Part shown: one piece after another, positions 21,499 through 38,076 of the stretch | Layout: every line of letters begins with the position of its first letter | Position numbering within the stretch: the stretch's first letter is position 1 | Source of the DNA: Calditrichota bacterium | GTDB taxonomy: Bacteria; Calditrichota; Calditrichia; RBG-13-44-9; J042 | Length of the DNA: 41,967 nucleotides | Direction: 5' to 3' | Assembly (NCBI GenBank): GCA_013150955.1 | Contig: JAADJD010000062.1 | Location: forward strand, 113,416 to 155,382 | Made by a program: the position numbers and the translations under genes | Notes under the pieces: generated by a model | Databases searched by the model: none | Seen by the model: only the letters and a program-made list of their open reading frames with translations | What the model was told of the DNA's origin: nothing

Positions 21499-21530
21499 AA
21501 AAAAAGGGCACAATCTTTTCGATTGTGCCC
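21499..21530 (-). terminator. Intrinsic terminator after tRNA-Phe
   Basis: Perfect ten-pair stem GGGCACAATC/GATTGTGCCC (21506-21515 with 21521-21530) with a T-run of seven on the minus strand (A at 21499-21505), eight bases beyond the tRNA 3' end. Confidence 0.9.
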
Positions 21531-21537
21531 CTGACGG

Positions 21538-21874: not shown

Positions 21875-24355
21875 CTATTCCACCTTTCGATAAAACTCGT
21901 TGAGGCACCACACCTTCACGTCCGCTGGCCGGGCCGAATTGGTTTTTCTTTTCCCGGTAATCTGCACCGAATCCCCCGGAAACAGATCCAGCCAGTTATC
22001 GGAAAACTCCACGCCCGGCGCCTCCAGAAAAACGCCGGGAACAAAGGTGTGGGCATTCAATCGGATGCGAATTTCCTCCCCGGTCTCATCCTCAACCGCC
22101 CACTGCAACCCTTCTGGATCCAGGTGCAAATGTTTTAAAGGCAAGTACGTCCAATAATGGCGGGAAATTTCCTCTCCCGCATCATCCATCAAGCGCAATA
22201 ACCAGAGGCGACAGGCCTTTTCGTCATCGGAGATCGGAGTGTGCCGCTCCCACACGGTGAGCACCTGACCTGCTGGAAGCTGAACGGCCTGAGTGCCTGA
22301 CCACACGGGGGCGTTTTCCTTCAAATCAAAAAGAGTCAGCTGAAGTTCGCCATTCCAGACCGTGCTATCCAGATTCAGGGCACGGACGCAGATCTTCTCC
22401 CCATCGCCTTGAATGACTGCCCGCTGTTTCTGGAAAAACCGCCGCGCGGCAAAATAAGCGGCCTTGGGTTGCAGGTTGGCATCAATCAACGCCCAGCTGG
22501 TTACCGGCCAGCAATCATTAAGTTGCCAGATTAGACTGCCCGACGTCTGTGGCCAGCGAAAACGCCAGTGATCCACACAGGTTTGCAGGGCCAGTGCCTG
22601 GTTCAACCAGGTCAGGTAAAGAAACGCCTCCCAGCGGGTGGAAACAGGCAAATGTGCCACCAGAAAGCGAAACAATCGTTCGGTGCCTTCTTCCTGCTTG
22701 TTATGATGTTCCACCGTGCGGCTCCAGGGATACCGTTCCCCGGGTTCGATTGCTGCTTCCAGGGTTTCCCGATTCGCCGGCGCCTGAAATCCAAATTCGG
22801 TGACGAAAAGACTGTCATCCGCTTCCACGGTGCGATAATCCTGCCAGATGCTCCAGATGTTCCACTGATGCCGATTGCCACTGCGGGTATCGTTGGGATC
22901 TGCGTCGTCACCAAACGGCGAAGACGGCCAGTAAGCCCGGGTGGGATCCAGTTGCTGGCACAATTCCGGCAACAATCGATGGAAAATCGAATATCCGGGC
23001 ATGTCTTCCGGGGAACGTCCGGTACGCTGGTACCAGATCCATTCATTCTCATTATTCCCACACCAGATTACCAGACAGGGATGATGCTGCAGGCGGCCAA
23101 TCTGATAGCGCGCTTCCCGACGCACATTTTCCAGAAAGGCCTGGTGCTCGGGATAATCCCCGCAGGCAAACATGAAGTCCTGCCACACCATCAATCCCAG
23201 GCGATCACACCATTCGTAAAACACATCCGTCTCATATACGCCGCCACCCCACACCCGGAGCATGTTCATCCCGGCATCCCGGGCCATCTGCAACAATCGC
23301 CGATATTTTTCCGCCGATACGCGGGGTAGAAACGCATCCGCCGGAATCCAGTTGGCGCCCTGAGCATACACCGGGCGACCATTAACCACAAACCGGAATA
23401 CGGGGTTTCCCTGATCATCCTGACGCTCCAGGGTAACGGTTCGAATGCCGACGAACCAGGTGCGCTCATCCACCACCTCTTTTCCGCTGAATAAACGCGC
23501 CTCCAGTTTATACCGGAAGGGTTCTCCCATCCCGTTAGGCCACCACAACCTGGGATTCTTTATCTCCAGCTGGCAGTCCACGGCGTTTGAATTTATCGGC
23601 ACGCGGGTATTCCAGACGGGTTCATCCACCCCGGGCTCCCGCAAGACGATTTCCAGTTCCCCGGATTCGTCTGCAAACCACTCCAGCTGAACCTCCACCC
23701 GAACGACCGCTTTCCGGGACGATGCCGAAAGGGTGTGAAATCGCAGATGATCCAAGCGACCCGCATGCAGCCTTTCCAGATACACCGGTTTCCAGATGCC
23801 CACCGTGGGCAGGGATGGCCCCCAGTCCCATCCAAAGGCATACTGCGCCTTGCGGATGTAAACCCGCTCGGCGCTGTTGGGTGCCGAAAGCGGGCCATAT
23901 TCCGCCACCTGCGAACGGGCATACAACACCGGGGATTCGAAGATAACTTCCAGCACATTCTCCCCCGATTTCAATAAATGGGAGACGGGAAATCGGTAGG
24001 CCAGGAACATGTTATCGGTGCTGGCTATCTCTACCCCGTTAAGCCGAACGGTGGCAATGGTGTCCAGTCCCTCAAAAACCAGAAAAATTGGATGTTGCGG
24101 ATTCAACCACTGAGGATCCACCTGAAACGTTTTGACGTATCGCCAGCGCTGATCATGTACCCACTGCACCGCCACCTCGTTGCGGTTTACAAATGGGTCG
24201 GGAATGATGCCGGCCGCCAGCAAATCCGTGTGAATGGTTCCTGGAACCTGTGCCGGCAGGCCATCGGATGGAAACGCTCGTGCCACTTCCCCGGGAAGGG
24301 ACTCCATTTCTGGATGGACACGCCAGTCCCCACACAAATCCAGGCGCTCTCGCAT
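21875..24355 (-). CDS. Beta-mannosidase, glycoside hydrolase family 2
   Basis: The 826-residue enzyme releases terminal beta-mannose from manno-oligosaccharides. Full GH2 architecture: sugar-binding jelly roll (1-190, with the beta-mannosidase signature VPGTIHTDLLAAGIIPDPF), immunoglobulin-like domain (about 195-305), catalytic TIM barrel (about 305-620) and C-terminal beta domains. Catalytic acid/base is Glu436 in WCGNNENEW and nucleophile Glu520 in FVTEFGFQ; RVWGGGVYE (367-375) is the barrel strand near the active site. There is no signal peptide, so it acts in the cytoplasm on imported oligosaccharides, consistent with an ABC importer in the same gene run. GGGAGG precedes the ATG. It is the last gene of the minus-strand mannan locus. 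Length matches the family. Confidence 0.95.
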   Translation of the reverse strand: MRERLDLCGDWRVHPEMESLPGEVARAFPSDGLPAQVPGTIHTDLLAAGIIPDPFVNRNEVAVQWVHDQRWRYVKTFQVDPQWLNPQHPIFLVFEGLDTIATVRLNGVEIASTDNMFLAYRFPVSHLLKSGENVLEVIFESPVLYARSQVAEYGPLSAPNSAERVYIRKAQYAFGWDWGPSLPTVGIWKPVYLERLHAGRLDHLRFHTLSASSRKAVVRVEVQLEWFADESGELEIVLREPGVDEPVWNTRVPINSNAVDCQLEIKNPRLWWPNGMGEPFRYKLEARLFSGKEVVDERTWFVGIRTVTLERQDDQGNPVFRFVVNGRPVYAQGANWIPADAFLPRVSAEKYRRLLQMARDAGMNMLRVWGGGVYETDVFYEWCDRLGLMVWQDFMFACGDYPEHQAFLENVRREARYQIGRLQHHPCLVIWCGNNENEWIWYQRTGRSPEDMPGYSIFHRLLPELCQQLDPTRAYWPSSPFGDDADPNDTRSGNRHQWNIWSIWQDYRTVEADDSLFVTEFGFQAPANRETLEAAIEPGERYPWSRTVEHHNKQEEGTERLFRFLVAHLPVSTRWEAFLYLTWLNQALALQTCVDHWRFRWPQTSGSLIWQLNDCWPVTSWALIDANLQPKAAYFAARRFFQKQRAVIQGDGEKICVRALNLDSTVWNGELQLTLFDLKENAPVWSGTQAVQLPAGQVLTVWERHTPISDDEKACRLWLLRLMDDAGEEISRHYWTYLPLKHLHLDPEGLQWAVEDETGEEIRIRLNAHTFVPGVFLEAPGVEFSDNWLDLFPGDSVQITGKRKTNSARPADVKVWCLNEFYRKVE

Positions 24356-24416: not shown

Positions 24417-27400
24417 TTAGCGGACGAGCATGAGCTTACCATACTGGCTGGCCTGCCCGTATGCAATGCGGTAGAAATAAATCCCCGAAGCCACGCTTAC
24501 CTTCTGGGCATTCTTGCCCTGCCAGCGAAACCGTACGGTTGTCGGTTTCGAGACCGGCAATTGCTGTCGGTAAATTTCCTGCCCCAGAATGTTGAAAATC
24601 TTCAACTCCACAAAGCGGGCCCCGGGCTGGGGATCGTGGATCTGCACCACAAACTCCGTCGTATCGTTAAACGGATTCGGGAAGGGGCCCCGCAGACTCA
24701 GTCGTTTTCCCCGTTGCACTTCCGGGGTTTCGGCATCGGCAATTTTTACCAGATTCTCCACCGTCGCCATGGCGAAAGCCGTCCCCGCTCCATAAATTTC
24801 CTGACCTATCTGTCCAGACTTTTCCCATCCTTCCCGCAAATCTTCCAGGGGGATGTAAAGATCCGGGTGATTCAGCGAACCGTAGCGGGCCGTATCCGTG
24901 TGCACCACTTCCAGCGGGAGATGGGGCGGATAGGTGTAATACAAAACGGCCTGTGACTGCTCCACAAACGCCTGAATGAGCTGCTGGACAAATTCTGGAA
25001 CGATGCCTCCCACCAGCTGGGAATATTCCAGCAGGTACAGCACGGTCTCGTATTGCTCCTTGGGTGTAATCACCGCACTGTGCTTCATGGGGGAGAGCCC
25101 CATAAAGGTCTGGTAGTACTGTCCATATCCGTAATCGCATTCCCACATCCAGGTGAGCCGGAATATGTTGGCCAACGCCACGTAACTTAACCCGAGGTAC
25201 CAGGGATCGCCCGTCATGGCATACAGACGCGCACAGGCGGCAGCCCCAATGGCGCTCATGTGAACCTCGTACATGAGGTCAAATCCTTTGCCTTCAAAAT
25301 GGGAGATCCCCGCAATAGCTTCTCGCAGGTAGGTGCTATCCCCGGTTAGCTCAAACACGTCCAGCATCAAATAGGCATAACCGCCTACCGCATCCGGCTC
25401 CGATCCGTAAAGGGGTTGATTGCCGGCGTAAGCAAACTTCACTGGAAATTCGTAATTCACGTTATGGGCCAGATCGATGACCACTGGAATGGATTGCAAC
25501 AACAATCGCCGCGCTGTGGAATCCCCCATCTTTGCCAGCGCCGACAGGCCCATGTGCAACTGCATGGTGTACCAGCTATCGCCCTCGGTAATGCCTTCGT
25601 TAGGATAATCGTTCACGATGGTCTGGTACTGCTGGTTGAAAAAGTACGGCAGGGTTGCCGAAAGGGTCTCATCCAGGTCGGAAAGTTCGCCGAAAAGATT
25701 TTCGTAGCGCTTCAGCGGAACCAGGACGTCCAGCTGGGCGATCATTTCCGCACTGTTGAATCGGGTGATGTCCACATACGCCCTCAGAAACGGTTTACCA
25801 TTCAGCTGCACCCAGCAGGAGGGATCTTTTAAATCCCGGGCACTTTTGCGAGCAATCTCCTGCCAGTTTACCGTCATCACCGGCGGAACGGAAATCTGCC
25901 TCAGCACCTGAGCCAGGCCTTCCAGATAGCGCAACATGACGTCATCTTCGCTGCGGGGATGATCTGGATAGAGTTTCAAAAAAGCATCGGTCAGGATTAG
26001 TGGACTGTTCGGGAAGGTCTGGTTCACGTCCACCGCGCGCAAATACCCAAAATCCCGCCGGCTGGTTTGCACCACATCGCGAGGTTTGACTCGCAGTCGT
26101 TCAAAATACGGATTCAATCGGGAAAAATTTTGAAAATACAGTATGGTTGCCTCCGTTCCTCCCTGATCCACCAGAAAGGTGAACCCGGTTGCCAGCGGTA
26201 CCTGACTGGCAAAAACCCGTGGCGATGCTTCTACCCATTCATCACGTCCCCGATGGTAAAACCGAAATTCGCGGGCGGATTGATCGATGGGGTGGGCGGA
26301 ATGTGCCTGCACCTGCCCCACAAACCGCAGCAAACCCGGTGCATCCCGATAGGCCACCACCTGACCAACCATCTGCCCCCACGACCGTTCCGCTTCCAGG
26401 CGAACGACGATGGAGTCCTCGTTTTGATTCACGGTCACCGCCTTCAGGCCTTCTGCCGCGGTGAGATTCAGGGAAGGTGCATTCAGGATGCGGGTGGCCA
26501 GTGCCCGCTCGTTACCATTCAGCGGGGAAATCAAAATATAGTCGTCGTAGCGACCGGCCTCATAAAAAACCTCGAATCCTCCGCTGATCAGGCGAAACCC
26601 GTTCTGCCACAGGGAATCCAGGTAAACCGCAGAGGCTGCGGCCAGGGTAGTAACCGTGGTTGTCCAGACGGCCTGTCCGTCCACGCCATCGGGATCGGTT
26701 ATGCGGGCCTGCACTTCGTAAGTGGTATTTTCCTGCAGTCCGTAAATGGTTTTACGAAACAGACTATCCTCCCGGCTCATCACCCCCACCGGGATCCAGT
26801 CTCCATCTCCCCGCAAACGGTACCACAGCTCCACCCGCCCGTTCCGATTGGCGTCGCCCCGGTACTGCAGTTCACAGGTCACCCGGTGAATACCAGCCGC
26901 CCGGACGGTAAACGCCAGCGAAACCAGTCTGGGGGTTTGCAAACGCACACCGGTAAAGCGCTGGGGATTGGGCCCCACTACGCCATCGTTGTCGGTGGCA
27001 CGGATTTCCACTTCGTACGTCTGATCGGCTTGCAAACCACTCAACACCCCCTGGAAACGAAAATCCCCGCGCTGCAGGGATTGCTCTGCTGACCAGTCTC
27101 CATTCTCCGGCCGGTAGCGCAGAAACGCCTGACCATTCCGGTTGTCATCCCCCCAGAACGGCAGGGTAATCCGCACCTCGCTGACGGTTGCTTCCAGTTG
27201 GGCTGTCTCCAGCACCAATCGATCCTCAGCTCGGGTGGTCAATTTCAGCACCGGGCGAAAATATTCCGGGAAATATTCCCGGGAGGCAACATCCAGAATG
27301 CCGGTACCGGCAGCCGGAACGGGCTCCCGAACCACCAGCCCCATATTGCTATCCGGGTGGACCAGCCAGAATTGCACCAGCGGGGTCAGATTCCACTGCA

Positions 27401-27959
27401 ACCACTGGCCGGTGGCCATGTCCGGCGTAACCACCAGGCTATCTACCGGGACGCCCTGACGGTCTGCGGGAATGCCATCGGCTCCCGGCTGATCCCATAA
27501 CAGCGATCCCTGGCGGGCCGCCAGCCAGCTGCACTCTCCCGTCCGGGCCGGCCGGCCATCGTAGCCACCCGGATCGTCTCCCTGACCTTCTCCCCATGGC
27601 TTCTTCAAGCGGTACACCGCCAGGGTTTTTGCCACCGATTGTTCGGTGCGTCGTTGCACCAGGTATAATTGTAATTCGGCCCGGTCAATTTCCAGCGACC
27701 GGGGAAGGTGGGACAGATCGAAGCGCAACAGGGCAAATTTGGCATCCGCCATGGCCCCGTTGCCGGTCACCTCCAGAAAGGTTTCCGCACCCGTGTTGTT
27801 TTCCGGCTTATCGGCCAGAATGTGGGCATCCTGTGCCCCCTGGTAGCCGTTTACCCCGCCCTGCAAAATCACCGTTTGCTGGGCAAACAAACCACTGTTG
27901 ATCAGAACTCCCCCCAATACCAGCCACAAAACCCCAAAGATGCCGTGCTTCATCGTCAT
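24417..27959 (-). CDS. Large T9SS-exported multidomain protein, putative novel mannan-active enzyme
   Basis: The 1180-residue protein has a signal peptide ending near FAQQ (26-28). Residues about 28-245 form a DNRLRE/CBM96-like beta-sandwich (ALLRFDLSHLPRSLEIDRAE, QWLQWNLTPLVQFW). Two FN3-like domains follow (about 250-345 and 345-440; each ends with a YEVEIRATDNDG/YEVQARITDPDG strand). Residues about 440-1090 match no family I know. The first part is beta-rich (EVFYEAGRYDDYILISPLNG). The rest looks helical, with paired aromatic-rich segments (GITEGDSWYTMQLHMGLSAL, YGSEPDAVGGYAYLMLDVFE, FDLMYEVHMSAIGAAACARL, WECDYGYGQYYQTFMGL), the layout of an alpha/alpha-toroid glycosidase or lyase. Residues about 1095-1180 are a T9SS sorting domain (FPNPFNDTTEFVVQI ... 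SQYGKLMLVR). Context implies an extracellular mannan-degrading or mannan-binding role; activity is inference. Confidence 0.85.
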   Translation of the reverse strand: MTMKHGIFGVLWLVLGGVLINSGLFAQQTVILQGGVNGYQGAQDAHILADKPENNTGAETFLEVTGNGAMADAKFALLRFDLSHLPRSLEIDRAELQLYLVQRRTEQSVAKTLAVYRLKKPWGEGQGDDPGGYDGRPARTGECSWLAARQGSLLWDQPGADGIPADRQGVPVDSLVVTPDMATGQWLQWNLTPLVQFWLVHPDSNMGLVVREPVPAAGTGILDVASREYFPEYFRPVLKLTTRAEDRLVLETAQLEATVSEVRITLPFWGDDNRNGQAFLRYRPENGDWSAEQSLQRGDFRFQGVLSGLQADQTYEVEIRATDNDGVVGPNPQRFTGVRLQTPRLVSLAFTVRAAGIHRVTCELQYRGDANRNGRVELWYRLRGDGDWIPVGVMSREDSLFRKTIYGLQENTTYEVQARITDPDGVDGQAVWTTTVTTLAAASAVYLDSLWQNGFRLISGGFEVFYEAGRYDDYILISPLNGNERALATRILNAPSLNLTAAEGLKAVTVNQNEDSIVVRLEAERSWGQMVGQVVAYRDAPGLLRFVGQVQAHSAHPIDQSAREFRFYHRGRDEWVEASPRVFASQVPLATGFTFLVDQGGTEATILYFQNFSRLNPYFERLRVKPRDVVQTSRRDFGYLRAVDVNQTFPNSPLILTDAFLKLYPDHPRSEDDVMLRYLEGLAQVLRQISVPPVMTVNWQEIARKSARDLKDPSCWVQLNGKPFLRAYVDITRFNSAEMIAQLDVLVPLKRYENLFGELSDLDETLSATLPYFFNQQYQTIVNDYPNEGITEGDSWYTMQLHMGLSALAKMGDSTARRLLLQSIPVVIDLAHNVNYEFPVKFAYAGNQPLYGSEPDAVGGYAYLMLDVFELTGDSTYLREAIAGISHFEGKGFDLMYEVHMSAIGAAACARLYAMTGDPWYLGLSYVALANIFRLTWMWECDYGYGQYYQTFMGLSPMKHSAVITPKEQYETVLYLLEYSQLVGGIVPEFVQQLIQAFVEQSQAVLYYTYPPHLPLEVVHTDTARYGSLNHPDLYIPLEDLREGWEKSGQIGQEIYGAGTAFAMATVENLVKIADAETPEVQRGKRLSLRGPFPNPFNDTTEFVVQIHDPQPGARFVELKIFNILGQEIYRQQLPVSKPTTVRFRWQGKNAQKVSVASGIYFYRIAYGQASQYGKLMLVR

Positions 27960-28022: not shown

Positions 28023-28955
28023 TTATCCCACCCGGTGCTTCCACAGCGCGTCGATCAACCGGGATACTTTACCCACCGCCAGACCCACCACCTTATCCGC
28101 CCCTCCGTAGAATACCAGCAGATCGTCATCAAAAATGGCCGTTCCCTGAGGAAAAACCACGTTATTCACATCGCCAATTTTTTCGTAGTCGCGTTCCGGT
28201 TCCAGAATGGGATACGGCAGGCGGGCAAGTACCTTTAAGGGATTGCGTTCATCCAGCAGAACGGCTCCCGCCCGGTAAGTCAGCTGCTTATCCACCCCAT
28301 GGTAAATCAGGATCCAACCGGCATCGGTTAAAAACGGTGGCGGGCCGGCTCCGATTTTTTCGGCTTCCCAGATCTGCTCCCCGTACAATACCGTATGGTC
28401 ATCCAGATTGGCCAGGTGACGTTCCCAGTACTCCGGCTCGGGTTCCAGAAAATGATCCAGATCGTCAAACAGGGCGATCTGAATGTTGGGCTCAATGCGG
28501 TGCATGAAGGCCACCTTGCCATCCACCCGACCGGGAAACAGCATGGCATCTTTGTCCCAGGTATCCGGCCCAACCTGACCAATTTTATGGTATTCCCGAA
28601 AATCTTTTGTTTCCGCCATGATGATGCGTACCTCTTCCCCATCGAATCCGGAATAAAACACAAAGTAGCGATCCTCGAAGGGAACGATACGTGGATCCTC
28701 ACATCCGCGGGATTCCTGAGGAAGGGTACGCGAAATGACCGGTTCGTCATGGCGTTCCAGCACCTCGCCATGGCGATTCAACCGGGCATAGCCGATGGTG
28801 GAATAGTTATCCCCCTCCACGGCTCGATAGAGCATGTGGATATCTTCGTTACCGCGAACGGTGCCCGGATTAAACGCTGCTCGCGATTCCCAGGCATTTT
28901 CCTCTCGCGGCCCCAGGATGATCCCGTTTACTCTTTCCAGCTGAAACTGACCCAT
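28023..28955 (-). CDS. GH130 family beta-mannoside phosphorylase/mannosidase
   Basis: The 310-residue protein is a five-bladed beta-propeller enzyme of GH130. Diagnostic segments: FNPGTVRGNEDIHMLYRAVE, the catalytic Asp87 in GCEDPRIVPF, TWDKDAMLFPGRVDGKVAFM followed by HRIEP, the IYHGVDKQLTYRAGAVLLD blade and VVFPQGTAIFDDDLLVFYGGAD. Family members either phosphorylyse beta-1,4- or beta-1,2-mannosides to mannose-1-phosphate or hydrolyse beta-1,2-mannosides; I cannot decide which from sequence alone. There is no signal peptide, so it is cytoplasmic, beside beta-mannosidase. The start is the ATG at 28955 with AAGGAGA upstream; a GTG nine codons earlier lies before the ribosome site. It is 36 bases downstream of the preceding gene in the operon. 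Confidence 0.93.
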   Translation of the reverse strand: MGQFQLERVNGIILGPREENAWESRAAFNPGTVRGNEDIHMLYRAVEGDNYSTIGYARLNRHGEVLERHDEPVISRTLPQESRGCEDPRIVPFEDRYFVFYSGFDGEEVRIIMAETKDFREYHKIGQVGPDTWDKDAMLFPGRVDGKVAFMHRIEPNIQIALFDDLDHFLEPEPEYWERHLANLDDHTVLYGEQIWEAEKIGAGPPPFLTDAGWILIYHGVDKQLTYRAGAVLLDERNPLKVLARLPYPILEPERDYEKIGDVNNVVFPQGTAIFDDDLLVFYGGADKVVGLAVGKVSRLIDALWKHRVG

Positions 28956-28991
28956 CTGCCCATCTCCTTTTTTACATTCCACGATTTACTT

Positions 28992-30425
28992 TTAATTCAA
29001 TGTTTTCTTGAACGTTGCTCTGGAAGCGTCATTCAACTGCCGGCGGAATCGGTTCATTTCGGCCCGCGCAATGGGATTCCGTTCAATGGCCTGCAGAATC
29101 ATCAATGCCTCGATGGTCGACTCGGCACCGGCATTGCGATTGACCCGAACCGATCCTGCGGGCGATTTACCATCCCCGGTCATGGAAGGTTCCCGATACA
29201 GCCCATCGAAGCAGCGTCCTGTCCGGGCATCGTACATTACGGCTCCGGCGGGATTGTTCCCGAAGAGCCAGGCGGCCAGCTGCCCGGCCTGACGTGCGTA
29301 GGCCTCCTGCCCGGTGATCCGATACGCCATCAAACTGGCCATGACCATGGGACGAATATCGTAGGCAATTTGCGGGAACGCCTCCCGGCGCACCACCTGA
29401 ACCCCCGCCGCGCTTCCCCGAAACTGCAGCGCGTGCAGGAACCGGTTTTCCAGCAAATAGTGGTAAAAATAGCGGACTTCCACCAGGGCGCGACGCACCC
29501 ATTCTTCTTTCTGCAGGAAAGATCCCAGGGTCAACAGTGCATGGGACTGGCTATTGCCCCAGGCATGCCAGAGATTTCGCCAGCTCCGAAAGGCTCCAAA
29601 GGGAAACCGAAGGGAATCGCCTGTTTGCATGATAAGGATGCCCCTGGCCAATCGTTCGGCCAGGGCCACCAGATGTCCCCGAAACTCTGGGGAGGCCTGT
29701 GGTAAATATTGATCCAGTGCCAGCAACATCACCGCTGCCTGATCGGCACCGGTTTCTACCGGCAGGTAGGCCGGACAAACCAGTCCATCATAAACCACCG
29801 TATCTGGATACGTTGATAAAACGCTATCGTAAAGGGAAAAACTCAATTCCAGGGCATGCTCTGCCTGTAACGCCAGGGGAACATTTTTGGCGCGTAGCAG
29901 GGGCAGGGCGCGTGCCAGCGCCCACTGGGCGCGCCAGGTCCACCAATCCGGACGATTCGTACTGGTCTCTCCATCACGATTGATGGAATAATCCTCCTGA
30001 ATAAAATTGTAAAATGTGCCCTCCGGGCTTTGCATGTGAAGTAAAAAGCGCACCAGCAGTTCCACCCGGCGCCAGGAATCCATCCGCCCGTGGCGCTCGT
30101 AATCTTCCAGGTACACCAGAATGGCCCGCGCGGCATCATCCACACAGGCAATGCCTTCTCCCGGCGCAGCAATGGGCCGGTAATCCGGATATTCCGCGTA
30201 AATCCGCACAATGCCCATTTCCGAATCACCCGTGGGTACGACCTGGAAGAGGGCATTGAGGTGAGACAGGTTTACCAGCGGCAAGGGGCGACTGGCACAC
30301 CGCCAGCCTATCACCAGCAACGGCAACACCAGCACCAGTAGTCCCCCTCCAACCTTCCACCAACAGAATCCGGAGGTGTGCCCGTTTTTCCGGTTCATTG
30401 GACGATTGTTTCCCTTTCTCCTCAC
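28992..30425 (-). CDS. Membrane-anchored putative alpha/alpha-toroid (six-hairpin) glycosidase-like protein
   Basis: The 477-residue protein starts at GTG (30425) with AAGGAG nine bases upstream; an ATG at codon 10 has a poorer site. Residues about 24-42 are a single hydrophobic segment, signal anchor or signal peptide, not a clear lipobox. The rest is all-helical in pattern with repeated aromatic and acidic segments: GEGIACVDDAARAILVYLED (about 94-113), FLLHMQSPEGTFYNFIQEDY, WWTWRAQWALARALPLL, SWRNLWHAWGNSQSHALLTL and GRCFDGL near the C-terminus. Such paired helices with conserved Asp, Trp and His are seen in six-hairpin glycosidases and unsaturated glycuronyl hydrolases, but I cannot place it in a family. 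Its position between the ABC permeases and GH130 suggests a periplasmic mannooligosaccharide enzyme. Confidence 0.75.
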   Translation of the reverse strand: MRRKGNNRPMNRKNGHTSGFCWWKVGGGLLVLVLPLLVIGWRCASRPLPLVNLSHLNALFQVVPTGDSEMGIVRIYAEYPDYRPIAAPGEGIACVDDAARAILVYLEDYERHGRMDSWRRVELLVRFLLHMQSPEGTFYNFIQEDYSINRDGETSTNRPDWWTWRAQWALARALPLLRAKNVPLALQAEHALELSFSLYDSVLSTYPDTVVYDGLVCPAYLPVETGADQAAVMLLALDQYLPQASPEFRGHLVALAERLARGILIMQTGDSLRFPFGAFRSWRNLWHAWGNSQSHALLTLGSFLQKEEWVRRALVEVRYFYHYLLENRFLHALQFRGSAAGVQVVRREAFPQIAYDIRPMVMASLMAYRITGQEAYARQAGQLAAWLFGNNPAGAVMYDARTGRCFDGLYREPSMTGDGKSPAGSVRVNRNAGAESTIEALMILQAIERNPIARAEMNRFRRQLNDASRATFKKTLN

Positions 30426-30431
30426 TGCGGT

Positions 30432-31247
30432 TCACTCCTTTAATCCGGTTGTGGCCATACTTTCAATGAAGTAGCGCTGGAAGAACAGATAGGCCAGCAC
30501 AATGGGCAACGCCAGCATGGTTGCCGCCGCCAGCTTTACCCCCAGCTGGGCCTCCGCCCGTCCCCCCACCGCAAACAGGGCAATCAACTGAGGCATGGTC
30601 ATCAACTCCTCCACCCGAATCACAATCAGTGGCCAGAGCACCTCGTTCCAGGTATTCATGAAGGTGATGATGCCCACGGTCACCAGCGCCGGTACAGCAT
30701 TGGGCCAGAGAATCCGAAATAAAATCTGCAAATCGCCGCAGCCATCGATGCGTGCGGCATCGATGAGATCCTGCGGAATGCTCATGAAAAACTGGCGAAA
30801 CATGATGATGCCAAACGCATTCATGATGTAGGGCACGATCAGGGCCAGATAGGTATCCACCCAGCCAAATTTGACCATCAGGATGTACTGGGGAATCAGG
30901 GTAATCTGAAATGGCAGCGTCATCGTAAAGAGAATGACGTAAAAAATCAGATTGCGTCCCCGGAAGCGCAAGCGCGATAGCGCATACCCCACCATGGAAC
31001 CAAACACCAGTACTCCGGCCGTTACGGCCGCGGAAACCAGCAGACTGTTCAGCAGTGCCCGAAAGATCGGGATTTTCTCCACCACCTGTTGATAGCTGTG
31101 CAAAGACATACGGGAGGGCAACAGCACCAGCGACTCGATTTCCTTCTCCGGTGCCAGCGAGGCCATCACCATCCAGAAAAATGGATAGGTGAAAACAATC
31201 ACTCCGGCAATCAGCACCAGGTAAATCATCCATTTGCGCGAACCCAT
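30432..31247 (-). CDS. ABC sugar transporter permease, MalG/UgpE-type
   Basis: The 271-residue inner-membrane protein has six membrane helices and the cytoplasmic EAA loop DAARIDGCGDLQILFRILWP near residue 180, which docks the ATPase. The N-terminal MIYLVLIAGVIVFTYPFFWM and the periplasmic loop LLPSRMSLHSYQQ are typical of CUT1 family MalG-like subunits, which import oligosaccharides. The ATG at 31247 (MGSRKWM) has GGGG upstream; a TTG ten codons earlier is unlikely. It is six bases from the next gene but 196 bases after the other permease. No ATPase gene is in the locus, so a shared MsmK/MalK-type ATPase encoded elsewhere is expected. Confidence 0.94.
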   Translation of the reverse strand: MGSRKWMIYLVLIAGVIVFTYPFFWMVMASLAPEKEIESLVLLPSRMSLHSYQQVVEKIPIFRALLNSLLVSAAVTAGVLVFGSMVGYALSRLRFRGRNLIFYVILFTMTLPFQITLIPQYILMVKFGWVDTYLALIVPYIMNAFGIIMFRQFFMSIPQDLIDAARIDGCGDLQILFRILWPNAVPALVTVGIITFMNTWNEVLWPLIVIRVEELMTMPQLIALFAVGGRAEAQLGVKLAAATMLALPIVLAYLFFQRYFIESMATTGLKE

Positions 31248-31443
31248 CTGATGTCCCCGTGTTAAATGCCTTCCCAATCGTTCATTACGAAATTTTCAAA
31301 AGCGGCTGATGGCATCCCGTTCCCGGAATATTCTCCATTCCATGAAATGGTAACCGGAATCATCCGCCCCGCTGGAAGGGCGGCTTTCAATCTGGACATG
31401 ACTGTTTTGCCCCTCTTCACGAATTCACCCCTTCCTGTCACCC
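31248..31443 (-). other. 196-base gap between the two permease genes
   Basis: Permease pairs normally abut. This gap holds a 61-codon open frame (31262-31447) whose TTG start overlaps the stop of the upstream permease and has GGGAGG seven bases before it. The deduced product, rich in Gly, Arg and Asn, resembles nothing I know. It could be a small protein, a remnant or chance. No promoter or terminator is evident. Confidence 0.3.
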
Positions 31444-32304
31444 TCAAATCGTGACCTCCCGTTCCACCAATTTTTTCTGGATGACCACCACCAGCATGAT
31501 CAACAGGGCAAAAAAGAAGCCCAGGGTAGCGGCATATCCCATGTGGTAAAAAAAGAATCCTTCCTTATATATATAAAGCACAGCCGAAAGGGTACGATTG
31601 AGCGGCCCGCCTCCGGTTAAAATGTAGGGTTCAATAAACAGGGAAAACCCACCAATGGTGGACAGAACCACCACCAGGAAGATGGTGGGATTGATCATGG
31701 GCAGGGTAATGTGGCGAAATTTTTGCCAGGCGGTAGCGCCTTCCAGATCGGCAGCCTCGTACAATTGCGCCGGCACGCTCTGCAGGCCGACCAGGAACAA
31801 CACAATGTACAACCCCACGTTTTTCCAGGTGGCCATCAGGGCGATGGACGGCATGGCCAGATCGGGATCCACCAGCCAACCCACTTTCCCCAGACCGATG
31901 GCCACCAGCAGCCGGTTCAATAATCCAGAATCGTAACTGAAAAGCCGCTGCCAGAGGATGGTCACCACCACCCCGGAAACAATCACCGGCAAAAAATAGG
32001 CTGCGCGGAAAAATCCCCGCAAACGCAATTGGCGATTGAGCAATTCCGCAAAAAACAGGGCCACGACAATCTGCAAGGGAATATGGATCAGCAGGAAAAT
32101 CAGCGTGTTGCCCAGTGCCCGGAAGAACAATGCATCGTTGGCCAGCCGGTGGAAGTTATGCAATCCCACAAACTCCATGGGTGCAATGATATTCCAGCGG
32201 TGAAACACCAGCACCAGCGAAAAACCCACCGGAAATGCAACGAACAATAGAAAATGCACCACGTATGGCAACACGAATCCGTAGCCGGTGTAACGTCGGG
32301 TCAT
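31444..32304 (-). CDS. ABC sugar transporter permease, MalF/UgpA-type
   Basis: The 286-residue inner-membrane protein (292 if started at the ATG at 32322) has six membrane helices and the EAA loop YEAADLEGATAWQKFRHITL near residue 190. The N-terminal GYGFVLPYVVHFLLFVAFPV and VEPYILTGGGPLNRTLS-type final loop (EPYILTGGGPLNRT) are characteristic of CUT1 MalF-like subunits. Its partner is the permease downstream and the solute-binding lipoprotein upstream. I prefer the ATG at 32304 (MTRRYTG), which has AGGTGG at five bases; the upstream ATG has no ribosome site. Confidence 0.94.
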   Translation of the reverse strand: MTRRYTGYGFVLPYVVHFLLFVAFPVGFSLVLVFHRWNIIAPMEFVGLHNFHRLANDALFFRALGNTLIFLLIHIPLQIVVALFFAELLNRQLRLRGFFRAAYFLPVIVSGVVVTILWQRLFSYDSGLLNRLLVAIGLGKVGWLVDPDLAMPSIALMATWKNVGLYIVLFLVGLQSVPAQLYEAADLEGATAWQKFRHITLPMINPTIFLVVVLSTIGGFSLFIEPYILTGGGPLNRTLSAVLYIYKEGFFFYHMGYAATLGFFFALLIMLVVVIQKKLVEREVTI

Positions 32305-32386
32305 ACCTTCCACCTGTTTCATGCTTTTGTCATGCCGGTCTCAACCGGTTTTACAGAAAAACGATTCCCCATGCAGATCGCCGGGA

Positions 32387-33730
32387 TCACAGCATCAGCC
32401 TGACTCGGCGGGCGGCTTCTTCCAGCGCCTTATCCACCGGAACCACTCCATAGATGACACTGGCCTCGAACTGCTGGGAAATGGCGTCGAACACCTCTTT
32501 CAATACCGGGCAGACATCGGTGCCCCGAACATACTGTGCCTGCCGGGCAAATGGCTTCATCCGGGGATTTTTTTCAAAATACGCCTGAAAGTAGGGATCC
32601 TGAAACAGATTCCGTCGCCGGGGCAGCTGATCGGTGGTCTCCAGAAACAGGCGATCGTTTTCCTTGCTAATCATGAAGCGCACAAATTTCCAGGCCAGTC
32701 GCGGATTGGGACTGGTTCCAAAAATGACAATGTTTTTAGGATCCCCATAGGTGTAAACCGGGCCCTGGTGATCATCGGGAACCGGCACGGGTGCAAATCG
32801 ATATTCAAAACCTTCCGGTTTAAATTTTTCCAGATACCGCACTACCCAGGGGCCGGTGAACTGGGTGGCCACCTGTCCCGCAATAAACGGATCCTGCCGG
32901 CCTTCCATGGGATCGCGGGGTAAATGGCCGCCCGCATACAGGCGACGGAGAAATTGAAACACTTCTCGGGCGTAACGATTGTTAAACACGACCCGATTGC
33001 CCGTTACCAGTGGGGCACCCTCACTGGCTGCCAGATACAGGGGATAAAAATCGAAGAGCCGTTTCCACCAGGTGACATTCACATTCAGGTAGCCGATCCA
33101 CCGATCCACATAGCCATCGCCATCGGTGTCGGCTTTCATTTTTTCTGCCGCCTGTAAATATTCGCTGTAGGTGGCCGGGGGCCGATCCAGGCCGATCGCC
33201 CGGAAAAGCCCCACATTGTACACCATCATGATGGGGTTAATCTTCCAGGGAACCTGGTAAATGTGGCCATCTTCCGAAGTAGCTTCCCGCACCACGGCCG
33301 AATCGCAGCGCTGGTAAAGAAATTCCAGAAATCCCGGAAGCGTATCCAGCGGCACCAGCACCCCTGCGCGGGCAAAGGCTTCCACATCCCCCTGCCACAT
33401 GTTGGAATACACATCGGGCGTGGTTTTGCCCACCACCGCGGCCAGAATGACTTCCTCGCTGGACTGTCCCTCTGGAACGGGCTGATAACGCACCGGCGTG
33501 TCCGGATGCCGACGATTCCATTCGGCCACTACCAGGCGGGCAAATTCAATCTCGTAAGGATTGTTCGATGACCAGTAGATGATTTCGTTGGGATTGCGCT
33601 GACGGGTGGATGTGCAGGCCAATCCTGAGAGGATCAACGCGCTGCAGACCGCCAGGTAAACCACCTGACGACAACGCCAAACCATCCGTGCCCGTCTTAC
33701 CGATCGACCATCAAAAAAATGCATCACCAT
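32387..33730 (-). CDS. ABC sugar transporter solute-binding lipoprotein (family 1)
   Basis: The 447-residue protein has a long basic N-terminus, hydrophobic segment and lipobox-like SGLAC (Cys39), then a Thr/Ser/Arg/Gln-rich linker. The mature part is a type 1 extracellular solute-binding protein: IIYWSSNNPYEIEFARLVVA, PDVYSNMWQGDVEAFARAGV, the KINPIMMVYNVGLFRAIGLD segment, GPWVVRYL and the C-terminal RLAWKFVRFMISKEND. Such proteins capture oligosaccharides in the periplasm for CUT1 importers; manno-oligosaccharides are the expected ligand from context. GAGG precedes the ATG by seven bases. It is 76 bases downstream of the PorV-like gene with no promoter visible between them. Confidence 0.93.
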   Translation of the reverse strand: MVMHFFDGRSVRRARMVWRCRQVVYLAVCSALILSGLACTSTRQRNPNEIIYWSSNNPYEIEFARLVVAEWNRRHPDTPVRYQPVPEGQSSEEVILAAVVGKTTPDVYSNMWQGDVEAFARAGVLVPLDTLPGFLEFLYQRCDSAVVREATSEDGHIYQVPWKINPIMMVYNVGLFRAIGLDRPPATYSEYLQAAEKMKADTDGDGYVDRWIGYLNVNVTWWKRLFDFYPLYLAASEGAPLVTGNRVVFNNRYAREVFQFLRRLYAGGHLPRDPMEGRQDPFIAGQVATQFTGPWVVRYLEKFKPEGFEYRFAPVPVPDDHQGPVYTYGDPKNIVIFGTSPNPRLAWKFVRFMISKENDRLFLETTDQLPRRRNLFQDPYFQAYFEKNPRMKPFARQAQYVRGTDVCPVLKEVFDAISQQFEASVIYGVVPVDKALEEAARRVRLML

Positions 33731-33806: not shown

Positions 33807-34841
33807 TTAAAAAGCCACGTTAATGGAAAACCGTTGAACATTTTGCAGCCGACCAAAGTCGGCGTAGGCGTAATCCAGCTTCACCTGAAAATTCCCCAGA
33901 AACCGAACATGAAAACCGGCCCCCAGGGTAAAGCCTTCCTCCCCATCCCGCAGGAACAGGTTGCGGAAACCGCCCCGAAGGAAAAACTGTTCCCGGAAGG
34001 CATATTCCATCCCGATGTTCATGCTTTCGGTATTGTCGATGGGATGGAGCGCATCCACTGCCACGGTGAGGCGCTGTTGTTCGGTCTCCCAGGGTTCAAT
34101 GGCCAGGCCGGCCTGAAAAATCAGCGGCAACGGCCACTGGTCGGTCTTCAACTCCGCAAAAATTCGATCATTGTTTCCCAGTTTGTAGGGATCGATATCG
34201 TGGTAAACCAACAGATTGTCCCCGCTCATGCGCATGTCGGTACCAAAATTGGTTAATGCAGCGCCGATGCGCAATCCCTTCAACCCGGTTCGAAACAGGG
34301 TACCCACATCGATGGCAAATCCCTGAGCGGTCTCTTTCCAGATGCGCTGGTAGATGTACTTGGCGGTCATTCCAAAGGAAAAGCGATCGGTCAGGTTAAA
34401 TCCGTAACTGAGGGCCAACGCCAGATCCGAAGCCGAAAAGCGCTCCCCGGTCCCTTCGGGCTCTTCCACCGTGCGCACCAGCATTTCTCCCATACTCAGG
34501 CTGGTCAGGCTGGCTCCCAGGGAACCGTACACTCCCAGGGGAATGACCACGCCGGCATAATCGAAGCGAATATCAGCCAGCCAGTTGGTATGGACGAACA
34601 GCACCTCCGGTCGTTTGAGCTGGGCAATGCCGGCCACATTCCAGTACAGCGCACTGGCATCGTTAGCGGTGGCCACAAATGCTCCCCCCATGCCAATGGC
34701 ACGGGCACCCACACCGATCTCCAGAAACGGTGCCGCCGTTGTTCCCACATTGGACACGTTCTTCACAAATTGTGCCTGAACGGAAAACACCAGTGCCCCA
34801 ATCACGAAAAGAATACCCCTGATGAAGCTGGATGCTTTCAT
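33807..34841 (-). CDS. PorV/PorQ-family outer-membrane beta-barrel protein
   Basis: The 344-residue protein has a signal peptide (MKASSFIRGILFVIGALVFS, cleavage near VQAQ). The PorV-like N-terminal signature is clear: APFLEIGVGARAIGMGGAFV followed by ANDASALYWNVAGIAQL, then alternating beta-strands of a FadL-like barrel to the end with a terminal Phe (INVAF). PorV-type proteins carry T9SS cargo from the translocon to the surface in Bacteroidota; paralogs next to individual cargo genes are common in this superphylum. The start at 34841 has GGTGG six bases before it; a much longer open frame runs upstream through the neighbouring gene on the same strand but is a frame shadow. It lies 13 bases after the 1073-residue surface protein, so it may serve that protein. 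Confidence 0.9.
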   Translation of the reverse strand: MKASSFIRGILFVIGALVFSVQAQFVKNVSNVGTTAAPFLEIGVGARAIGMGGAFVATANDASALYWNVAGIAQLKRPEVLFVHTNWLADIRFDYAGVVIPLGVYGSLGASLTSLSMGEMLVRTVEEPEGTGERFSASDLALALSYGFNLTDRFSFGMTAKYIYQRIWKETAQGFAIDVGTLFRTGLKGLRIGAALTNFGTDMRMSGDNLLVYHDIDPYKLGNNDRIFAELKTDQWPLPLIFQAGLAIEPWETEQQRLTVAVDALHPIDNTESMNIGMEYAFREQFFLRGGFRNLFLRDGEEGFTLGAGFHVRFLGNFQVKLDYAYADFGRLQNVQRFSINVAF

Positions 34842-34854
34842 GACCATCCACCGC

Positions 34855-37800
34855 TTATTTGATGATTGCAAATTTTCCGATCTTTTCACCAATTCCCGGT
34901 GCTTCCACATGATAGATGTACACCCCGTAAGCAATTTCCTGATTGTCCTTGGACAACAGATTCCAGGCTGCCTGACCATTGTTGACATCGCTGTTGTGTT
35001 CAATGACGTCCACCAGATATCCCCGAATGGTGTAAATGCGAATGGTGCACTTCGGGGGCAAATTGATGAAGTAGATGCGGCGTTCTCCGCGGCCAAACCG
35101 GAATGGACTTCTTGGCTCCCAGGATGCGGCCACCACGTACGGATTGGGCACCACGGCAATCCGATCCAGATCCGATTTTGCCTTTTCTCGATCAAATCGG
35201 CTTCCCCGAAGTTTAAAGGTGAACCGGTCGCCCGTGCGGAACGGCTTGAAAGTGGCAATCCGGAATACGTCCCCCGGCTGGGGATACCGCGGCTTTCCTC
35301 GGGTGGGATCCACTTCCAGCACCAATCGCCAGGTGGTACTGTATTTCAAAATCGATTCGGGGTTTTCTTCCACGATGAGAATCTGCTCCAGCGAATCGAT
35401 GCTCTGATCCTCGGTTACCGGCGTCAGGGTACTGTCTCGGTACTGATCGTAATATTCCCGGAAGATAAATTTTGCCGGCCGATCTTCGGTGAGATTGTAA
35501 ACCGAAAATTTGGTGGGAACTGCCGGGAATCCCAGGAAACTGTACGAGGTATCGATGATCTGATCGGAAAACCGAATCTCATAATCCGCCGGGTACTTGG
35601 TGTTCAGGATGGCAAAGCGATCATCCAGGCTCACATCCCACTTCAGATTGCTATCGCCAATCAACCAGCCGGTGTTTAGCGGATCCACATCCACCTCCGT
35701 GTGATTGGTAATTTTCACCACAAATCCATCCACAATTGGCGAAACCGTTTCCTCGTGAACCACGGAAGTATCCAGTTTCAGCACCTTCTGGCCGTCGGTG
35801 ATGTCGTAAATCATGTAAAAGGGCGTTCCGCGGTCGTGCAAGACCGTGGTATCGGCAAACTCCACCTGATAGGTGTGCCCATCGCGGATGGAATCCGGAA
35901 TGATAAACTGAACCTCAAAATCGCCCGTACCGGCAGTTTCCCGGATGATTTCCCCGTCCAGCTCGGGTGGCACATAGCCGGCTGCCGGGGCGGTGGGGGT
36001 CACCACCGCGGTATTGATATCCACCTGCACATTGCCGGCAATATCCACTTTGATCACACTGGGACATTCCGAGGGGGCAATCCCTTCCAGCGTGCCGATC
36101 GCGCTGGTATCCACAAATCCCCGGTCATAAGAAACCACCGCGTAATAATAGGTTTGGCCGTTCTGCACATCCGTGTCCACGTACACGTGGCGCAGACCGG
36201 TATCTTCGCCCAGGTCAAATTTCACTCCCTGCACATCGATGGGATGCAATCCCTTGATGCCATTTTTCAGATCGAACTGGGCAATGGGTTTCCGGAAGGT
36301 GAGTCGGCCATAGGCATCGGTGATCAGCCGCCGTTCCAGGAATTCCGGCTCCGTGCTGCGGTAAATGCGGTAGCCCTCAAAATCATATTCCTGCAGGAAG
36401 GGATCGTAGGACTGTTCCGCCCGCGTGTCCCAGATCAGGGTGACCTTTTTATCTCCGGGAATGGCAATCAGGCGGGGCTTGTCCGGTGGTTTCGCAAAGC
36501 GATAATCGGCATTGTAGATTTGCTGGACCGTCTTCTTTGTCCGGATGAGATCGTCCCGGTCTTCGGCAAAGATCAGGGCCATGGAATAATTTTCAGTCTG
36601 TCCCGCTTTTAAGGGGAACGATCCCGAAGAGAAGAACATACCCAGATTTGCGGTAACCTGACCTGCCGAAGGCGGCGGTGCGGATTTAAAGACCTTCCAG
36701 TTCTGTTCCTCGTTCCACAGTTCGTACGTATGCACCGGGAAGATGCGGAACCCGGTTAAACCAATCTGATCCGACTCATCCTTATCCGTCTTATCGAAGT
36801 TGGGTTCCCCATCGGTGGGGATGCCATCGGCCTCTCCTTCATCCGGGCCGGTGTAATTGGGATCCAGCGGGCCAATGCCATCGGCGCCCACGTCGTCGTT
36901 GAGCGGTTCGCCGGGATCCCATTGCCCGTTTTCATTCACATCCTCGTAGGGCCGCCAGTCCTGATCTTCGTCGCCAGACCAGTGCGGCCGGGGCTCCCGT
37001 CCGTAAAACTGGATGAATTTCTCCACATCATCCACGCCATACGGATACGTGTCCAGCCACACACCGGGGCCGCTATCCCGCCGTTCGTCCACCAATCCGT
37101 CGTCGTCGTTGTCCACATTGTCATCCTTAATTCCCGGACTTTCCAGAAAGGCAAATCCCGCAACCCCCACGGGGAACCAGCGTCCGGGCGTGCCGTAGCC
37201 GTCGTAATCCCACGCCCAGGCAATATCCAGGGTTAAATCGTATTCGCCGGTATCGTCGGAGGAATCATCGGTGCCACCCACGCCCCAGTCGATATAAAAT
37301 GCATAGTAGACCGAATCGTAATTGGTCTTGCCCTCGTTGGTAATGAAGTAAACGGCAAAGATGACATCCTCGGCCAGAACCTGCGACCACTGGAAATAGC
37401 GTGCAGCCACTTCCAGTCCCAGTCCCCGGCGCGTGGTGTCGGTGGGATCGGGATAAAAATCCCATTCTTCGTCGGGATCATCGTCAAACACGAAATAGGT
37501 TTCCAGATCGGCATTGCGCACGCCTTTTCCGAAAAAGCCGTTCCAGAAGACCACATCATCCACCAGGCCATTCTCATCGTTATCGATGCCATCGCGCACT
37601 TCACCGGGATTCACCCAATCGGGTTGATCGGGCCACACATCCGGCCAGGTGCTGGGGTCGTCGCTCATCGCGGGCTCGGTGGACTTGGGGTAAAAATAGC
37701 CCGGCAAGGGTGCCCATCCCCACAATTCGCCCTTGGGGCCGGTGTCCACAAATTCCCGGTACTGGGTTTCCATGGGGTGAATCACATTTCCATTGTTGTC

Positions 37801-38076
37801 GATGGCACGGGCCTGCACAATCAGCGCCACGCCGTCCACATACTGATGCCCCGTCCCCTTGGGCCATTCCCCGGAGGGTGAATCGGGCCAGTGGGCAATT
37901 TCGCCCCAGTTAATAAAAATGGTACGCACCAGATTCCCATCCATAATGCCCTGCCGGCGCCAGATGGGATCGCCCACGTTGGGATCCGGCGTGCGCTGGG
38001 CCCACAGGGCCATCAACGCTCCCGATAAAAGCAAGAGGTGAATCCACAACCTTATAGTGGTTCGACGTGTCCTCAT
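34855..38076 (-). CDS. Large acidic surface protein with EF-hand/TSP3-like Asp repeats, FN3 and T9SS-like C-terminal domain
   Basis: The 1073-residue protein has a signal peptide ending near ALWAQ (residue 27). Residues about 100-440 are very acidic and contain calcium-binding-type Asp repeats, DGIDNDENGLVDDV (162-175) and DDNVDNDDDGLVDE (318-331), then VNENGQWDPGEPLNDD (380-395). Residues about 505-660 resemble an FN3 domain (KPRLIAIPGDKKVTLIWDTR, FEGYRIYRSTEPEF). The last 75 residues are a FlgD/T9SS-like sorting domain (IRIYTIRGYLVDVIEHN ... GEKIGKFAIIK). It lies directly between the TonB receptor (12 bases) and the PorV-like gene (13 bases). In Bacteroidota this place is held by SusD, but no SusD-like tetratricopeptide features are visible. 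A glycan-binding surface partner of the receptor is my inference. Confidence 0.85.
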   Translation of the reverse strand: MRTRRTTIRLWIHLLLLSGALMALWAQRTPDPNVGDPIWRRQGIMDGNLVRTIFINWGEIAHWPDSPSGEWPKGTGHQYVDGVALIVQARAIDNNGNVIHPMETQYREFVDTGPKGELWGWAPLPGYFYPKSTEPAMSDDPSTWPDVWPDQPDWVNPGEVRDGIDNDENGLVDDVVFWNGFFGKGVRNADLETYFVFDDDPDEEWDFYPDPTDTTRRGLGLEVAARYFQWSQVLAEDVIFAVYFITNEGKTNYDSVYYAFYIDWGVGGTDDSSDDTGEYDLTLDIAWAWDYDGYGTPGRWFPVGVAGFAFLESPGIKDDNVDNDDDGLVDERRDSGPGVWLDTYPYGVDDVEKFIQFYGREPRPHWSGDEDQDWRPYEDVNENGQWDPGEPLNDDVGADGIGPLDPNYTGPDEGEADGIPTDGEPNFDKTDKDESDQIGLTGFRIFPVHTYELWNEEQNWKVFKSAPPPSAGQVTANLGMFFSSGSFPLKAGQTENYSMALIFAEDRDDLIRTKKTVQQIYNADYRFAKPPDKPRLIAIPGDKKVTLIWDTRAEQSYDPFLQEYDFEGYRIYRSTEPEFLERRLITDAYGRLTFRKPIAQFDLKNGIKGLHPIDVQGVKFDLGEDTGLRHVYVDTDVQNGQTYYYAVVSYDRGFVDTSAIGTLEGIAPSECPSVIKVDIAGNVQVDINTAVVTPTAPAAGYVPPELDGEIIRETAGTGDFEVQFIIPDSIRDGHTYQVEFADTTVLHDRGTPFYMIYDITDGQKVLKLDTSVVHEETVSPIVDGFVVKITNHTEVDVDPLNTGWLIGDSNLKWDVSLDDRFAILNTKYPADYEIRFSDQIIDTSYSFLGFPAVPTKFSVYNLTEDRPAKFIFREYYDQYRDSTLTPVTEDQSIDSLEQILIVEENPESILKYSTTWRLVLEVDPTRGKPRYPQPGDVFRIATFKPFRTGDRFTFKLRGSRFDREKAKSDLDRIAVVPNPYVVAASWEPRSPFRFGRGERRIYFINLPPKCTIRIYTIRGYLVDVIEHNSDVNNGQAAWNLLSKDNQEIAYGVYIYHVEAPGIGEKIGKFAIIK

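Follow-up and report, generated by a model that had tools for sequence, protein, structure and literature searches.

A candidate (alpha/alpha)6-toroid enzyme family, possibly acting on beta-mannan, encoded beside GH130 genes in Calditrichota and other bacteria

Do bacteria depolymerise beta-1,2-mannan, and if so, which enzyme makes the internal cuts? GH130 beta-1,2-mannoside phosphorylases are known in bacteria, and no report of an endo-beta-1,2-mannanase was found among the open-access papers searched (subscription papers, preprints and CAZy lie outside that scope). The question is raised by a gene cluster in a 41,967-nucleotide stretch of a Calditrichota bacterium assembly (GCA_013150955.1, contig JAADJD010000062.1, positions 113,416 to 155,382; hereafter, the window). 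There, the minus-strand open reading frame at 24417..27959, supported by its translation and by relatives found elsewhere, encodes an 1180-aa secreted multidomain protein whose residues 440-1090 (the core) carry no family name. We propose, with confidence evenly balanced between yes and no, that the core represents an (alpha/alpha)6-toroid family without a Pfam or NCBIfam model, which acts here as an extracellular, endo-acting glycoside hydrolase (GH) on beta-mannan, with the beta-1,2-linked polymer as the most probable substrate.

An earlier note, made from the letters of the window alone, had stated that residues ~440-1090 match no glycosidase or lyase family, and this holds for Pfam, NCBIfam, and PDB sequences: the core returned no Pfam family at E ≤ 1, no NCBIfam match over the curated cut-off, and no phmmer match to PDB sequences. 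Profile searches with the core yielded nothing beyond short toroid-repeat matches (E ≥ 0.003), and in two to three core members C5-epim_C and GH88 were matched weakly, at the level of repeats (E ~0.01). Relatives with 24 to 89% identity over the core are spread over many phyla, none of them with a family name, and this distribution argues that the core is far beyond a chance open reading frame. The family is rare, and widely but thinly spread. A scan of ~85,000 species genomes delivered 16 core loci, from Calditrichota, WOR-3, TA06, Anaerolineae and other Chloroflexota, Spirochaetota, Couchioplanes (Actinomycetota), and Pirellulales. The core occurs in 5 of 40 genomes of the host phylum (host counted), 5 of 400 Chloroflexota-group genomes, and, in two more groups, 1 of 296 and 2 of 299 genomes (with a marginal match among the latter two). 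Spirosoma, Novosphingobium, and two Asticcacaulis carry core genes on plasmids, annotated as 'hypothetical protein'; homologues from Asticcacaulis and Spirosoma have the accessions WP_013481118 and WP_232563406. The viral contigs searched held no relative.

To what fold does the core belong? The earlier note had guessed an alpha/alpha toroid from a beta-rich first part followed by paired helices, and the structure prediction and fold search that it had proposed led to the same answer. AlphaFold2 was run on the core with the sequences of 16 relatives, and the model (mean pLDDT 91.7, pTM 0.92) was examined by means of DSSP and Foldseek. It consists of an N-terminal beta-sandwich (residues 445-664; 25968..26627, minus strand) followed by an (alpha/alpha)6 toroid (residues ~671-1076; 24732..25949, minus strand), the latter bearing the acids conserved over 23 members. 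The 50 PDB matches listed by Foldseek were toroid enzymes, with E-values down to 5e-8: AGE epimerases and a mannose isomerase at the top, along with GH76, GH94, GH116, GH63, GH15, and the lyase 5nok. Query-normalised TM-scores were 0.40 at most; membership of the toroid superfamily is therefore clear, whereas membership of any known family is not. Over the 23 members, D856, E968, E1039, and D1040 are invariant, as are W796, Y797, Y836, W939, Q1053, and Y1056, while position 940 is always E or D. E1039-D1040 is the sole invariant adjacent acidic pair. No His is conserved (the best position, residue 832, has it in 15 of 23 members), and Arg/Lys is near-invariant at just one position. According to the secondary structure of the model, inner helices begin at or close to residues 794-797, 856, 897, 968, and 1053-1056, and the loops running into inner helices include 939-940 and 1039-1040. 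The invariant acids would thus lie where toroid enzymes keep their active site, in a putative acidic cleft. The core is very probably a toroid carbohydrate-active enzyme, and its best reading is a new family within the toroid superfamily, with neither a Pfam/NCBIfam model nor a solved relative.

Several known systems resemble the core in part. GH94 (clan GH-Q), GH63, GH15, and GH116 likewise combine a sandwich with a following (alpha/alpha)6 toroid and have acids near the ends of inner helices, but they reach TM-scores of only 0.2-0.31 over the query, at ~9% identity and with no sequence-profile match. The alpha-1,6-mannanases of GH76 share the toroid and the mannan setting, and one stretch of the core matches their profile weakly (E 0.003). 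They differ, however, in having two neighbouring catalytic Asp residues (D136/D137 in 6y8f), in lacking a counterpart of the sandwich, and in a TM-score of ~0.39 over the query; since the core has no invariant Asp-Asp, GH76 identity was ruled out. The SGL clan, i.e., the beta-1,2-glucanases GH144, GH162, and GH189 plus new families (PMC12102758), is comparable in that its enzymes act on a 1,2-linked beta-glycan. SGL structures were absent from the profile matches of the core and from the 50 fold matches listed, so that neither sequence nor these fold matches place the core in this clan. The GH130 beta-1,2-mannoside phosphorylases Teth514_1788/1789 (PMC4264767) resemble the neighbouring GH130, a partner of the core rather than the core itself.

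Which polysaccharide is targeted is suggested by the genes around the core. Ten minus-strand genes lie in series: a TonB receptor, a 1073-aa protein resembling type IX secretion system (T9SS) cargo, a PorV-family protein, a solute-binding protein, two permeases, a 477-aa lipoprotein, a GH130, the core gene, and a GH2. The GH130 gene (28023..28982, minus strand; PF04041) bears beta-1,2-mannoside phosphorylase signatures in both its PDB matches and its residues. Its best PDB matches are the 1,2-beta-oligomannan phosphorylase 9fj8 and the beta-1,2-mannobiose phosphorylase 7fip (199 and 177 bits; next, 116), and the GH130 beside the Spirosoma core homologue is nearest to Lin0857 and Uhgb_MS. Features of beta-1,2 GH130s are a Glu preceding the catalytic Asp (PMC4264767) and a Lys in contact with O2 of the mannose at +1 (PMC4599007). 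We aligned 12 core-neighbouring GH130 sequences with 9fj8, 7fip, Uhgb_MP, and TM1225, the last two taken as beta-1,4 type. In the window GH130, Glu95 stands before the catalytic Asp96, and all 12 neighbouring sequences have Glu there. At a single alignment column (K144 in the window), the two beta-1,2 enzymes and 12 of 12 neighbours share a Lys that the beta-1,4-type pair lacks; beta-1,4 enzymes have Arg there. R162, K/R209, and H228, basic residues that are invariant among the aligned phosphorylases, are also kept. As judged from sequence, the neighbouring GH130s are thus of the beta-1,2-mannoside phosphorylase type. The GH2 (21875..24355, minus strand; Pfam), in which no signal peptide was seen, is closest to beta-mannosidases (PDB 5n6u, E 1e-182). 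Both genes sustain the claim of the earlier note that this is a mannan locus, although the GH130 signatures favour a beta-1,2-linked polymer over plant-type beta-1,4-mannan.

The association with GH130 is not confined to the window. Of the 19 loci whose flanks could be read, 10 have a GH130 gene no more than 2.3 kb from the core (the window with same-genus L022/G026, L030, L024, L025, L026, L031 with two copies, L032, L015, L016, and L017/L018), and these loci are scattered over the core family tree. By chance, a GH130 would be expected within 5 kb in ~0.5% of cases, given two GH130 genes in a 4.07-Mb genome. At the genome level, GH130 was present somewhere in all eight genomes searched outside the host phylum; inside it, GH130 occurs in 26 of 39 genomes, so that co-occurrence there is uninformative.

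The modules flanking the core bear on where the enzyme works. The reading frame and its T9SS tail, both called in the earlier note, proved genuine: a T9SS type A sorting domain occupies residues 1093-1177 (24429..24683, minus strand; TIGR04183 over cut-off, E 2.5e-7; FlgD_ig in Pfam), and ~60 similar tails were counted across the host genome. A signal peptide covers residues 1 to ~26 (27882..27959, minus strand), judged by eye from the hydrophobic N-terminus MTMKHGIFGVLWLVLGGVLINSGLFAQQ. With this signal-peptide-like start, the sorting domain, a T9SS-bearing host, and a PorV-family gene nearby, the 1180-aa protein has the sequence hallmarks of a T9SS cargo. The module previously called CBM96-like does exist at residues 43-241 (27237..27833, minus strand) but is better named DNRLRE (NCBIfam NF033679, E 6.7e-17), Pfam CBM96 being unmatched at E ≤ 1. 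The two FN3-like modules of the same note were located at residues ~245-438 (26646..27227, minus strand), albeit with sub-threshold scores (Pfam fn3, E 0.03; FN3_DSCAM, E 0.008). The full DNRLRE-FN3-core-T9SS architecture recurs in L023, L025, and L026. Residues 181-211, within the DNRLRE domain, match Pfam TGFb_propeptide above cut-off (28.0 versus 25.8 bits), which is probably a model overlap and a pitfall for automatic annotation.

From what was computed (reading frame, domains, fold, invariant acids, cluster, GH130 linkage, and GH130 residue type) we infer hydrolase class, endo action, substrate, linkage, and the order of steps. Fold and context make it probable that the 1180-aa protein is a glycoside hydrolase of a beta-mannan; that its substrate is beta-1,2-linked falls slightly short of an even chance. 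Endo action is proposed because the protein would be extracellular, upstream of the importer, and because GH5, GH26, and GH113 are absent from the genome. The 1180-aa protein itself has no match to these TIM-barrel families, and none was found in the whole host genome (4.07 Mb, 66 contigs, 99.7% complete), which extends to genome scale the earlier remark that the locus lacks such an endo-mannanase. In the pathway that we envisage, the enzyme would leave the cell through the Sec pathway and the type IX system, and its DNRLRE module would keep it close to the polysaccharide while the core cuts beta-mannan, most probably beta-1,2-linked, to oligosaccharides. The TonB receptor, together with its secreted partner, would let these pass, the 477-aa toroid lipoprotein would perhaps trim them, and the ABC importer would take them up. 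In the cytoplasm, the GH130 would split them by phosphorolysis, releasing mannose 1-phosphate, and the GH2 beta-mannosidase would likewise cleave them. A more tentative generalisation, which we hold to be possible though rather doubtful, is that the cores form a new GH family whose GH130-linked members are endo-beta-1,2-mannanases feeding the phosphorylases, extracellularly on environmental beta-1,2-mannan and intracellularly on the cell's own store.

Several observations weigh against this assignment. In 9 of the 19 loci, the readable flanks contain no GH130 (L023, L027, L033, L035, L036, L037, L083, L084, and L085, the flanks of L027 and L084 being cut short). Three of these, in the Chloroflexota group, have an ABC importer alongside the core; a MocA-type oxidoreductase and a Kelch propeller are also present in the two with longer readable flanks. 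Conversely, the genomes G037 and G036 keep importer, 477-aa protein, and GH130 without a core, and a Sphingomonas plasmid has the 477-aa protein and importer with an Arg-type GH130. Given such core-free and GH130-free settings, the core is an interchangeable, add-on enzyme of these loci, different members of the family may have different substrates, and the depolymerase could be the 477-aa toroid. By eye, lipoprotein-like or ordinary signal sequences were recognised in other members, but none in those of Spirosoma, Alphaproteobacteria, Actinomycetota, and some of the Chloroflexota, so that many core members would be cytoplasmic. As to linkage, the K144 column is equated with Lys199 of BT3780 from sequence comparison, and a background count showed the same Lys in the majority of the other GH130s that could be read in these genomes. 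The signature therefore speaks for the type of the GH130 and not for a special pairing with the core.

The strongest competitor retains the toroid GH family but changes the substrate to ordinary beta-1,4-(gluco)mannan or a mixed-linkage heteropolymer, with GH130 and GH2 handling several beta-mannoside linkages. Beta-mannosidases, to which the adjacent GH2 is nearest, usually act on beta-1,4-mannosides, and a GH5-like protein lies near the core in the relative L024. These facts lend the idea some weight, yet it remains a minority view, in that the GH130 residue type and top PDB matches are of the beta-1,2 kind, and the GH130s of group II members are nearest to Lin0857 and Uhgb_MS, the latter present in the PDB with a 1,2-beta-linked ligand. 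Less probable, and in our judgment unlikely, is that depolymerisation at this locus falls to the 477-aa toroid lipoprotein, leaving the 1180-aa protein as an accessory enzyme or a catalytically dead glycan-binding protein. The 477-aa protein is indeed likewise a toroid, and even in core-free loci its gene accompanies importer and GH130; however, Spirosoma and Alphaproteobacteria keep the core-GH130 linkage with no kin of the 477-aa protein found nearby, and the invariant acids of the core speak against a dead enzyme.

Could the core be something other than a hydrolase? A GH94-like toroid phosphorylase or transglycosidase, whose cytoplasmic members would feed GH130 directly, would agree with the presence of GH94 enzymes among the Foldseek matches and with the apparently cytoplasmic cores that adjoin GH130. 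We regard it as quite improbable, since the 1180-aa protein, as a T9SS cargo, would meet its substrate outside the cell, an unlikely place for phosphorolysis. GH94 identity, and with it membership of clan GH-Q, also falls on the lack of a profile match and of conserved phosphate-site residues, the core having no conserved His and a single near-invariant Arg/Lys. Even less can be said for a toroid polysaccharide lyase or uronosyl C5-epimerase: the weak repeat-level C5-epim_C and GH88 matches and the presence of 5nok among fold matches are offset by a cluster in which no uronate genes were found, and by invariant carboxylates that fit a hydrolase. Of the His/Tyr/Asn/Arg catalytic set of toroid lyases, the core has invariant Tyr residues but no conserved His. 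Last, an AGE-superfamily sugar epimerase or isomerase with an extra sandwich domain was already disfavoured and is scarcely credible, because, even though AGE-type enzymes (mannose isomerase 5x32, YihS, and CsCE) are the top matches to the core toroid and 2-epimerases partner GH130 in beta-1,4-mannan pathways, TM-scores are just 0.31-0.39 over the query, the sandwich is additional, and the named active-site mutants are of a catalytic His (YihS H248, CsCE H247) that has no conserved equivalent in the core, which rules out this identity.

Should the beta-mannan hydrolase assignment be correct, a set of 'hypothetical proteins' would gain an annotation, and the enzymes might become an analytical tool for beta-1,2-mannans, e.g., those of Candida and Leishmania. 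The core family, encoded beside beta-1,2-type GH130s in several phyla, exported in some bacteria and apparently cytoplasmic in others, is a concrete candidate for the internal cutter of beta-1,2-mannan.

The remaining genes of the cluster are likewise co-directional on the minus strand, with intergenic gaps of 6-166 bases (the uncertain PorV start excepted). Pfam identified a TonB-dependent receptor with a CarboxypepD_reg domain (38089..40767), an ABC solute-binding protein (32387..33730; PF01547), and two ABC sugar importer permeases (31444..32322 and 30432..31277; both PF00528). The PorV/PorQ-family outer-membrane protein (33807..35258) matches NF033709 (E 4e-72) only from residue 173, and its true start is probably downstream of the listed TTG. 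The 1073-aa secreted protein (34855..38076) showed a weak T9SS tail and no other family in Pfam/NCBIfam scans. Twice in L023 and also in L027, its kin again stand next to a TonB receptor gene, with a gene of the PorV family on the other side; a surface glycan-binding partner is a possible role. The 477-aa putative lipoprotein (28992..30425), which has no Pfam/NCBIfam match, is a second toroid according to its AlphaFold2 model and Foldseek. It superimposes on PDB 7tem (YPO2471, a putative exported protein) with TM-scores of 0.74/0.87 and 38% identity in the structure alignment; YPO2471 is kin of this lipoprotein and only a remote toroid match for the core. The idea that the 477-aa protein is a GH130-like propeller was refuted by profile comparison and by the toroid model. 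It recurs beside ABC sugar importers and GH130 and is a second enzyme candidate lacking a Pfam/NCBIfam family. With this second toroid at 28992-30425 and a T9SS cargo without family at 34855-38076, the 1180-aa protein can no longer be regarded as the only secreted large enzyme candidate of the locus. The cluster is bordered 3' of the GH2 gene by a terminator-like hairpin of 12 pairs plus a T run (21504..21532, minus strand; consensus scan), although such sites are not rare by chance, and 5' of the TonB gene by a reading frame with a T9SS tail (41243-41938, minus strand) at the contig end, probably truncated.

Elsewhere in the host genome, a second GH130 (L019, G000:C41), also of the Lys type, adjoins a GT4 glycosyltransferase, an arrangement that could belong to a beta-mannan cycle of the cell's own. 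The core-free cluster of G037 also has a GH2 gene and relatives of the 1073-aa secreted protein; in place of the core, it carries a Laminin_G_3 T9SS cargo with ~590 N-terminal residues without family, together with a GH94/MGH1-like toroid lipoprotein (L091:15338-19999, L094:353-2827). In the Kelch-containing loci (L083:2456-8935, L085:4303-10839), core homologues are accompanied not only by the Kelch propeller and the MocA-type oxidoreductase but also by an ABC sugar importer and a 230-310-aa protein without family. In Anaerolineales, the core is followed by a short-chain dehydrogenase/reductase (SDR) and a GT4 glycosyltransferase fused to a 477-aa-like toroid (L035:12855-15278). A downstream reading frame in L036 resembled an out-of-frame translation and was discarded. 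Finally, an unannotated stretch between core and GH130 in Spirosoma oryzicola (L015:14142-14252) matches the C-terminus of an SDR found at the same place in Novosphingobium, and is apparently a decayed SDR gene.

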